Shown: piece by piece, positions 8,896 through 11,922 of the stretch
Layout: every line of letters begins with the position of its first letter
Position numbering within the stretch: position 1 is the first letter of the stretch
Source: Methanomassiliicoccus sp.
GTDB taxonomy: Archaea > Thermoplasmatota > Thermoplasmata > Methanomassiliicoccales > Methanomassiliicoccaceae
NCBI GenBank assembly: GCA_018262895.1
Contig: JADFDJ010000007.1
Location: 1-64,000 of the forward strand
Reading direction: 5' to 3'
Length of the DNA stretch: 64,000 nt
Program-made: the position numbers and the translations under genes
The notes under the pieces: generated by a model
What the model was told of the DNA's origin: nothing
Database searches by the model: none
What the model saw: only the letters and a program-made list of their open reading frames with translations

Positions 8896-8916
8896 ACCCC
8901 TTCATTTCCACTGGAA
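8896..8916 (-). other. Origin recognition box ORB-a (minus orientation)
   Basis: Read on the minus strand the site is TTCCAGTGGAAAT, then G, then AAGGGGT. This is the archaeal ORB/mini-ORB arrangement of a short dyad core followed by a G-run. It matches the site at 10489-10509 at 20 of 21 positions but points the opposite way. It lies in the 112-base gap between the membrane protein gene and the end of hflX. ORBs are known binding sites of Orc1/Cdc6, which is encoded 1.8 kb to the right. Confidence 0.8.
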
Positions 8917-8928
8917 CATGTGGGGCCA

Positions 8929-8947
8929 ACCTGGTCTGTTACCAGGT
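8929..8947. other. Short inverted repeat beside ORB-a
   Basis: ACCTGGT-CTGTT-ACCAGGT is a perfect seven-base stem with a five-base spacer, 13 bases from ORB-a and 41 bases beyond the hflX stop. It could be a terminator stem for hflX or an origin-associated dyad. It lacks the T-run typical of archaeal terminators. Confidence 0.45.
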
Positions 8948-8987
8948 CTGTTCATCTGAGAGGTCGGCACATCGCTCACTGCTCGTA

Positions 8988-10397
8988 TTAGATCGCCCGA
9001 CCTCCCAAGGCCACGATGTGATTGACAATTTGTGAATGGTCCTTCTCCTGAGAGAAGAGGTGTACCTCCACATCGTCACCGTAATTCACCTTGACGACCT
9101 CAGTATGGGCGTGGAGCCATGACAGGAAGGGATTGACGCCTTCGACGTGAGGGAGGCGAAAGCTCATCTCCACTGGGTATTCGAAGGTCGATGTTATTAT
9201 CCTTCGAAGATCGTTCACGCCCTCGCCAGTGGTAGAGGATAGGACCAGCACCTCCCTAACAGGGATGGTTTCTCGGGCCAGGCGTACCTTTGATTGAATG
9301 TTTGATGCCAGGTCCTTTTTGCTGAGGATGAGGACCACTGAGTGGGGGTCGACCTCGGGGAACAGGACCCCCCGGGAGGTTGCGAGCTTTCTTTGCATCT
9401 CCTCGATGCTATCAGAGCAGTCTACGACGAGGAGCACCAGGTCAGCGAAGTATACCTCATCTATGGTGCTCTTGAACGATTCGATCATGAAGTGGGGGAG
9501 GTCGGAGAGAAATCCAATAGTGTCTGTTATGAGTATCTGCTTGCTCTCCCCCTCCATCCTTCCAGTCGTTGTGGAGAGGGTTGAGAATAGGCGGTCCTCC
9601 ACCAACGCCTTCTCCGTTGTCAGCGCGTTTAGAAGAGTTGACTTGCCTGCATTGGTGTAACCGGCGATCGCGACGAGGTTGAACCCTCTCTTCCTTCTCT
9701 GTTTCCGCCTGTTGTTGTGGTCTATCTCCAGCCTTCTAAGCTCATCGTCTATTCGACTGAGCTGCCGGCGAATGAGCTCGTAGTAAGCATCTGTCTCATA
9801 CTCGCCAGCTCCCAGGAAACCTGGGTGCTCCCCGCTCTTGGCGTTGTGGATCCATTCCCGCAGGAGGGGTATCTCATAGATAAGCTTAGCACGGTGGACC
9901 TGGAGCTGTGCCTCTCTGGAATAAGCTCTCGTGTCGAAGATGTTCAGGATCAATCGCACACGGTCTATGCATTCGATTTTCAACTCCCTCTCGAGAAGCA
10001 GATGCTGTGATGGTTTGAGATATCCATTGAATATCAGGAGACCTACCGGTCGCTTTTCAAGTAGTTCCTTGAGCTCTTTCAATTTACCTTTCCCGACGAA
10101 GCTCTTCGGATTAGGTCGTTCCCTTCGCTGCAGAACCTCGTACACGACCCGATAGGACATTGATGTAGAGAGATCCTCAAGCTCTGTGACATCTTCTCGA
10201 AGGGTGACGATGGCGACGGGTAGGGTTCTATCACTTTGGATTATCTCTTTTGACGTTTTCTTTCCTTCCTTTTCTTCTCTATAATATAACGTTAGTATAT
10301 TGTGTTTCTCTATCTCCTTCTTTTCTTGTCTCCACTTCCAATGTAATTTATGTTCTTCTTCTCTAGGAGACCCTTCGTTCTCCGCATCCCATTCCAT
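8988..10397 (-). CDS. hflX: GTPase HflX, inside the origin region
   Basis: HflX is a ribosome-associated GTPase. The family's Gly-rich segment NPKSFVGKGKLKELKELL and RAKLIYEIPLLR are present, and the G domain begins at about residue 245 with GYTNAGKSTLLN, followed by DTIGFLSDLP and SKKD. The only conventional start in frame is the ATG at 10397. It gives an unusual N-terminal extension of about 58 residues rich in Lys and Glu before the family's own start (LPVAIVTLRED). The gene is visibly AT-richer than its neighbours, most strongly in the extension. It lies between oppositely oriented ORB motifs, which suggests insertion or a double use of this DNA. Identity is secure; the role of the extension is unknown. 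Confidence 0.92.
   Translation of the reverse strand: MEWDAENEGSPREEEHKLHWKWRQEKKEIEKHNILTLYYREEKEGKKTSKEIIQSDRTLPVAIVTLREDVTELEDLSTSMSYRVVYEVLQRRERPNPKSFVGKGKLKELKELLEKRPVGLLIFNGYLKPSQHLLLERELKIECIDRVRLILNIFDTRAYSREAQLQVHRAKLIYEIPLLREWIHNAKSGEHPGFLGAGEYETDAYYELIRRQLSRIDDELRRLEIDHNNRRKQRRKRGFNLVAIAGYTNAGKSTLLNALTTEKALVEDRLFSTLSTTTGRMEGESKQILITDTIGFLSDLPHFMIESFKSTIDEVYFADLVLLVVDCSDSIEEMQRKLATSRGVLFPEVDPHSVVLILSKKDLASNIQSKVRLARETIPVREVLVLSSTTGEGVNDLRRIITSTFEYPVEMSFRLPHVEGVNPFLSWLHAHTEVVKVNYGDDVEVHLFSQEKDHSQIVNHIVALGGRAI
10225..10395. other. AT-rich tract with strand asymmetry, possible unwinding element
   Basis: This stretch of about 170 bases, which forms the 5' end of hflX, is the most AT-rich part of the surrounding sequence. 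It contains a long pyrimidine tract on the + strand (about 10257-10281) followed by alternating A/T (TATAATATAA, about 10280-10289). It lies between ORB-a and ORB-b, which point away from each other, about 100 bases from ORB-b. An origin unwinding element is a reasonable reading. The alternative is that it only reflects the codon content of a Lys/Glu-rich extension. Confidence 0.35.
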
Positions 10398-10488
10398 CTA
10401 GGGAATGCATAGGCCAGACAACTGTGTCATCCCAAAAGACGATACTTATCACCTAGGCTTCCTCTGCGACCACTCCAAAATTTTTCAG

Positions 10489-10509
10489 TTCCAGTGGAAA
10501 TCAAGGGGT
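10489..10509 (+). other. Origin recognition box ORB-b
   Basis: The site reads TTCCAGTGGAAAT, then C, then AAGGGGT on the + strand and continues into GGGGG. It differs from ORB-a at one of 21 bases. Archaeal ORBs have a dyad core followed by a G-string on one side, which sets polarity. This one points toward cdc6. Confidence 0.85.
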
Positions 10510-10526
10510 GGGGGTCATCCCCATCC

Positions 10527-10541
10527 TAACGAGCTTCGTTA
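10527..10541. other. Perfect hairpin in the origin region
   Basis: TAACGA-GCT-TCGTTA is a six-base stem with a three-base loop, 18 bases downstream of ORB-b. It may be a structural element of the origin or a binding site. Function is unknown. Confidence 0.4.
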
Positions 10542-10624
10542 ACACACGTATCTGGCATCGAGGTCGGGACAAACTAAAATATACCTGCCCCTCATACCAT
10601 TTTCGGGCAAAAAAGCGGCCGCTG

Positions 10625-10645
10625 TTCCAATGGAAGAAAAGGGGT
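10625..10645 (+). other. Origin recognition box ORB-c
   Basis: The core TTCCAATGGAA is followed by GAAAAGGGGT and then GGGGC. It matches ORB-b at 17 of 21 positions and has the same orientation. It lies about 10 bases upstream of the cdc6 TATA-like element, so Orc1/Cdc6 binding here could also repress its own gene. Confidence 0.75.
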
Positions 10646-10655
10646 GGGGCGGGTC

Positions 10656-10676
10656 CTTTTAAAAATTTTAAAAAGG
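10656..10676 (+). promoter_or_regulatory. cdc6 promoter, T/A-rich near-palindrome
   Basis: A run of T4A5T4A5 form stands 11 to 31 bases before the cdc6 ATG. Taken as a TATA box it predicts a start of transcription at or next to the ATG at 10687, which means a leaderless mRNA. Its low duplex stability next to ORB-c could also help origin opening. Confidence 0.55.
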
Positions 10677-10686
10677 GGAGCCGATT

Positions 10687-11922
10687 ATGGACGAAACCGT
10701 ATTCCAACAGTACCTGAGCTCAAAGAAGATATTCCAGAGGAACAGAGAGATACTGAGACCTTCGTACATTCCGGACGAGCTGCCCCATCGAAGAGAACAG
10801 ATCAATCAGCTGGCGTCGATCCTTGTCACCGCTCTCAGGGGCGACCGCCCCTCCAACGTCCTGATTTTCGGGAAGACGGGCACAGGAAAGACCGCCTCCG
10901 TCAAATATCTAGGTAAGGAGATCAGGAAAGCCGACAGCGAGTTCAACCGGGTCAGCTACCTCTACATGAACTGCGAGGTGGTCGACACTCAGTACGGTGT
11001 GCTCCAGAACATCGGCAACATGTTCATAGAGGATTTCAACGACCGCATACCATTCACGGGATGGAGCACAGAGCGGGTCTACAACATCCTTCGGGAGAAG
11101 ATCGACGAGACCAACCGGGTGGTGATCCTGGTGTTGGACGAGATCGATAAGCTGGTCTACAAGTCCGGCGACGATGTACTGTACCACCTTTCCAGGATAA
11201 ACGACGACCTACAGAACGCCAAGGTCTCCCTGATAGGCATATCCAACGACCTGAAGTTCACCGAGTTCCTCGATCCCAGGGTTAAAAGCCGCCTGGGGGA
11301 GGAGAAGATGGTGTTTCCACCGTACAACGCCGAGCAGCTGAAGGATATCCTGAACCAGCGCTCCAACATCGCGTTCTATCAGGGGGTCATCGATCCCAGC
11401 GTCGCGCCACTGTGCTCGGCCTTGGCGGCCCAGGAGCACGGCGATGCCCGCCGCGCCCTGGACCTGCTCAGGGTCGCCGCCGAGATAGCGGAGCGCAACG
11501 GGGACGATAAGGTCACCGAGGCCCACGTCTACAAGGCAAAGAACAAGATAGAGCTCGACTGCGTGACCGAGGCCATCCGCACCCTTCCCACACAGTCCAA
11601 GCTGGTCCTGATGAGCATCATCCTCAATGAGGAGAAGGGGGAGGGCCGGCTCACCACGGGCGACGTCTATGAAACCTATCGGGACCTGAGCCACATCGTG
11701 GGGGTCACGGTCCTCACGCAGCGCAGGATCACCGACCTGATCTCCGAGCTGGACATGCTGGGCATCATCCACGCCCGCGTGAAATCTTTCGGCAGGGGCG
11801 GCCGGACCAAGGAGATAGAGTCCTCCGTACCTCGAGTGGAAACGTTGAAGATACTGGAGGAGGACGAGATCCTCCAGTCCATCAAGAACTACCGGCCCAA
11901 GAACCAGACCACCCTGATCTGA
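10687..11922 (+). CDS. cdc6: Origin recognition protein Orc1/Cdc6
   Basis: This 411-residue AAA+ initiator shows Walker A GKTGTGKT (about residues 62-69), Walker B LVLDEID (about 151-157), sensor 1 ISND, and sensor 2 in HGDARRALDLLR. A C-terminal winged helix (about 300-411) follows and would contact the ORB G-string. The opening residues (ILRPSYIPDELPHR) match the archaeal Orc1/Cdc6 family. Placement immediately after two ORB motifs and a TATA element supports it as the initiator for this origin. The adjacent signal peptidase gene is convergent, with its stop directly following. Confidence 0.96.
   Translation: MDETVFQQYLSSKKIFQRNREILRPSYIPDELPHRREQINQLASILVTALRGDRPSNVLIFGKTGTGKTASVKYLGKEIRKADSEFNRVSYLYMNCEVVDTQYGVLQNIGNMFIEDFNDRIPFTGWSTERVYNILREKIDETNRVVILVLDEIDKLVYKSGDDVLYHLSRINDDLQNAKVSLIGISNDLKFTEFLDPRVKSRLGEEKMVFPPYNAEQLKDILNQRSNIAFYQGVIDPSVAPLCSALAAQEHGDARRALDLLRVAAEIAERNGDDKVTEAHVYKAKNKIELDCVTEAIRTLPTQSKLVLMSIILNEEKGEGRLTTGDVYETYRDLSHIVGVTVLTQRRITDLISELDMLGIIHARVKSFGRGGRTKEIESSVPRVETLKILEEDEILQSIKNYRPKNQTTLI

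Follow-up and report, generated by a model that had tools for sequence, protein, structure and literature searches.

The cluster of ORB motifs beside an orc1/cdc6 gene in this 64-kb window, the whole stretch of DNA that was analysed, raises the question of whether chromosomal replication in this Methanomassiliicoccaceae archaeon starts here, or whether the motifs primarily serve some other function. The original prediction of a replication origin next to cdc6 was supported by the rarity of the ORBs, the Orc1-1-type initiator gene and the order-wide conservation of the layout, and we put the probability that the locus represents the chromosomal origin, of the oriC1 type, at about 90% from these sequence comparisons.

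ORB motifs and the adjoining initiator gene

All three predicted ORBs were present on the predicted strands, namely ORB-a, the left outward-facing box, at 8896-8916 on the minus strand (TTCCAGTGGAAATGAAGGGGT, then CCCCC), ORB-b, the right outward-facing box, at 10489-10509 on the plus strand, and ORB-c, in tandem with ORB-b at 136 bp, at 10625-10645 on the plus strand, the latter two each being followed by GGGG. ORB-a and ORB-b differed at a single one of the 21 bases, reproducing the 20 of 21 agreement of the original prediction. The G-run that it had placed after every ORB was found at the two plus-strand sites, both of which read AAGGGGTGGGG, but not at the 8896 site, the extension of which reads AAGGGGTCCCCCTC with no extended G-run, and this difference between the left and right boxes was repeated in most of the hflX-bearing relatives. 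Across most hflX-bearing genomes, the left ORB was extended as GGGGTCCCCC and the right ORBs mostly as GGGGTGGGGG; in Methanomethylophilaceae, the G form of the extension was present on both sides.

With up to three mismatches allowed, the 21-base ORB pattern matched exactly three times in the window, at ORB-a, ORB-b and ORB-c, and the same search of shuffled windows returned a mean of 0.06 matches and a maximum of 1. Across the genome, a Methanomassiliicoccales MAG of 2,341,601 bases in 30 contigs and 99.66% complete, four perfect copies were identified, three at the cdc6 locus and one at C30:122489-122509, along with one site having three mismatches. The motif is therefore not scattered, as the original prediction had anticipated, and, as in oriC1-type origins, is largely limited to the origin locus (three of four perfect copies). 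Chance or low-complexity resemblance is a negligible explanation for the ORBs, as shuffled sequences rarely match, copies in the genome are scarce and the positions of the boxes are conserved across families; no support for it was found. A partial ORB at 10336 (TTCCAATGTAA) was dropped because the surrounding stretch is poorly conserved, as was an additional ORB-like site common to genomes G026, G032 and G039, because it lies within a conserved reading frame.

The plus-strand gene at 10687-11922, with its ATG at 10687, 41 bases beyond ORB-c, encodes a protein of 411 aa matching NF001625 (600 bits, above the cut-off) and TIGR02928 (449 bits). The closest solved chains were 2qby_A (E 6.6e-110) and 2v1u_A (E 2.9e-105), which we take to be Sulfolobus Orc1-1 and Aeropyrum ORC1, respectively, and the C-terminal winged-helix segment of the protein aligned well. 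These matches bear out the predicted Orc1/Cdc6 identity of the neighbouring gene and place it as orc1/cdc6.1, a cognate initiator of the Orc1-1 type; in the manner of an oriC1-type origin, several clustered ORBs thus adjoin orc1/cdc6. A second, divergent orc1/cdc6 (31% identity) is present on the opposite strand at C28:71900-72985, about 60 kb from the origin; the 20-kb stretch containing this paralogue shows no ORB at up to four mismatches. No GC-skew switch was seen at the locus on its own 143.6-kb contig, nor did the two arms differ in the complete genome of a relative across 23 sampled stretches (G029, p 0.50), and GC skew says nothing for or against an origin at this position.

Conservation of the layout and a candidate cdc6 promoter

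The arrangement of the boxes was tabulated for 15 genomes from six families (f1-f6). An inverted, outward-facing ORB array, with the left box on the minus strand, the right box on the plus strand and the G-strings pointing outward, was present in 14 of these, the exception being G024, in which only the right ORB was found and the left box was not. In families f1, f3, f5 and f6 the inverted ORBs enclose hflX; in f2 (G020, G026, G029, G035 and G037), presumably Methanomethylophilaceae, the pair encloses cdc6 instead, in agreement with the ORB positions in the literature for M. alvus and ISO4-H5 (PMC4153887, PMC5011839); and in G007, a family member without hflX, they enclose just 252 bp. Relative to cdc6, near relatives carry ORBs at about -1.8 kb (minus strand), -200 (plus) and -60 (plus), and G009, apparently Methanomassiliicoccus luminyensis B10, has a similar layout. 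The equivalent of ORB-a kept its place, about -1.7 to -1.8 kb from cdc6, throughout the genus and family, and that of ORB-c at -57 to -67 in most f1 and f6 relatives, but it was missing in several families. No HflX above the family cut-off was detected genome-wide in G007 or in the f2 genomes G020, G029, G035 and G037, which is most simply read as a loss of hflX from G007 and the f2 lineages with the inverted ORBs being kept. The locus thus appears to have been reorganised from lineage to lineage through differing gene content, while the inverted ORBs and, to some extent, an AT-rich element between them were retained.

The candidate cdc6 promoter is a TATA-like box, AAACTAAAATATACC, at 10571-10585 on the plus strand between ORB-b and ORB-c, which is conserved in part of the genus and lies in a moderately conserved 20-base window (at 10567, 72% identity across the family). 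A further TATA-like run at 10657-10676, directly before the cdc6 ATG, is not conserved. ORB-c is therefore downstream of the promoter-like box, and its placement just upstream of the cdc6 promoter in the original prediction did not hold. An initiator bound at ORB-c could plausibly block transcription of cdc6, although such autoregulation would not be universal given the absence of ORB-c from several families. The location of ORB-c between the promoter-like box and the cdc6 start is also what would be seen if the ORBs were mainly operators of Orc1/Cdc6.1, through which cdc6 is autorepressed and hflX controlled, with replication starting elsewhere. Single ORB copies do occur away from cdc6, and Sulfolobus Orc1-2 is a known regulator that is not an initiator (PMC9738581). 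However, an operator function does not explain why the inverted array is kept in lineages without hflX and in those with ORBs downstream of cdc6, and the box at -60 is missing in several families, making this explanation improbable.

The AT-rich element and hflX within the array

The gene enclosed by the array, hflX, encodes a GTPase (TIGR03156, 276 bits) and occupies 8988-10250 on the minus strand. Its longest frame, 8988-10397 with an ATG at 10397, crosses a non-conserved, AT-rich part, and conservation drops at 10227-10247, near the 5' end of the gene. As the codons upstream of 10215-10250 are not conserved, the ATG at 10397 is doubtful and hflX probably starts near 10215-10250, around which no in-frame ATG, GTG or TTG is evident in this species.

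When the 560 bp before cdc6 were scanned across 12 family members, conservation peaked in three 20-bp stretches, ORB-b (97%), ORB-c (93%) and one at 10279 (90%), compared with 79% for the hflX coding part. The last of the three falls within a single-copy, weakly paired element at 10254-10308 (plus strand), consisting of a pyrimidine tract and TATAATATAACGTTAGTATATT. A sequence-only model of this element gave one strong match in each of 13 genomes, located at the origin, with E values of 5e-9 to 3e-14; the model was built from the sequences of these same 13 genomes, so what is informative is that no strong second match appeared. Within the locus, stability is lowest in the 60-mer that starts at 10269, which ranks in the top 0.08% of the 64-kb window, and in 8 of 11 loci the lowest-stability 60-mer falls at the conserved element inside the array. 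The element at 10254-10308 is therefore probably the unwinding element, with inverted ORBs flanking an AT-rich unwinding region as in an oriC1-type origin, at an unusually long spacing. In the origin model, Orc1/Cdc6.1 from the adjacent gene would bind the three ORBs with fixed polarity, such that the inverted set of ORB-a and ORB-b/c, G-strings outward, would bracket the AT-rich element at 10254-10330. The duplex would melt at this element, MCM would be loaded there and replication would fire from the locus, and Orc1 on ORB-c would probably also restrain cdc6 transcription.

In several relatives, the element lies about 30 bases before the TTG or GTG start codon of hflX, the position of a promoter, and its core resembles a TATA box when read in the direction of hflX. 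The element thus also fits as a minus-strand promoter of hflX, and it is possible that it serves in both unwinding and transcription. It is also quite conceivable, if somewhat less than an even chance, that 10254-10308 is solely the hflX promoter, comprising TATA box and leader, and has no role in initiation at what would still be an origin. The genome that bears most directly on this is G007, which has no HflX above the family cut-off and, at this locus, no minus-strand gene to be driven, yet carries a recognisable form of the element, a similar string in which the spacer is 8 bases long, still between the inverted boxes. None of 3000 dinucleotide shuffles, and none of 112 other AT-rich tiles from G007, scored as high as this string; the resemblance had already been noticed when the shuffle test was devised. 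When the element model was searched genome-wide, the G007 locus did not stand out (E 2.6 among the loci compared), so the evidence from G007 comes from the local shuffle test, and the string could be a relic of a recent loss of hflX. Taken with the post hoc design of the shuffle test, this makes survival of the element in G007 suggestive only. A tentative proposal, held with similar reserve, is that the element is a dedicated protein-bound or melting element of the Methanomassiliicoccaceae origin with a role like that of the Sulfolobus ucm, within a long ORB array that would tolerate a gene and contract upon its loss.

Relation to known origins and ORB-like sites elsewhere

Borrel et al. 2014 (PMC4153887) have previously predicted origins with ORBs and orc1/cdc6.1 for three genomes of Methanomassiliicoccales, and ORBs beside orc1/cdc6.1 have been predicted in ISO4-H5 (PMC5011839), therefore the present locus joins an already known kind. 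It shares with these predictions the order, a near-identical ORB consensus, the initiator paralogue and nearby ATP synthase genes and, with M. luminyensis (PMC4153887), a second, ORB-free cdc6 at a distance of about 60-70 kb. Both publications give the ORBs by position, with only two, adjoining cdc6, for M. luminyensis. The present analysis adds to these a third ORB on the far, left side of hflX, the rule that the boxes face outward and the conserved, AT-rich element, such that the outer ORBs face apart across a whole gene with an easily melted, conserved stretch between them. No mention of hflX was found in the main text of PMC4153887, and none of the papers listed in a literature search joined the word hflX with archaeal origin terms. 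No experimentally mapped origin was found for this order of gut and wetland methanogens, in which a probable origin is now placed, and the locus provides a small, concrete set of sequences for testing the minimal needs of an archaeal origin.

Beyond the order, Sulfolobus oriC1 (ORB3-DUE-ORB2 with ucm; PMC12141716) similarly has an AT-rich unwinding region flanked by inverted ORBs, with a conserved non-ORB motif inside it and an adjoining initiator of the Orc1-1 type. However, its ORBs are about 130 bp apart, as opposed to 1.6 kb and a gene here, which counts against the origin reading, and there is no sign that the present element is the Sulfolobus ucm. Haloarcula hispanica oriC1 (PMC3936714) likewise lies beside cdc6 and has inverted ORBs with extended G-strings as well as an AT-rich core. 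The extended G-string is termed halophile-specific there, whereas in the present case it occurs at the right-hand ORBs in an order of methanogens.

The perfect ORB at C30:122489-122509 is a further point against the origin reading, as it stands alone, lacking both a partner ORB and a cdc6. The intergenic region around it, 1.7 kb in length, has a pilin-like gene on one side and a nitroreductase-like gene on the other. Of this region, just 322 bp match the nearest sister genome, G003, and the ORB lies outside the matching part. Dispersed ORB-like sites in relatives G001 and G006 are possibly titration or regulatory sites. G001 contains five such single sites, most of which read TTTCAGTGGAAATGAAGGGGT, and one of them is syntenic with a G006 site near a GatD-like gene.
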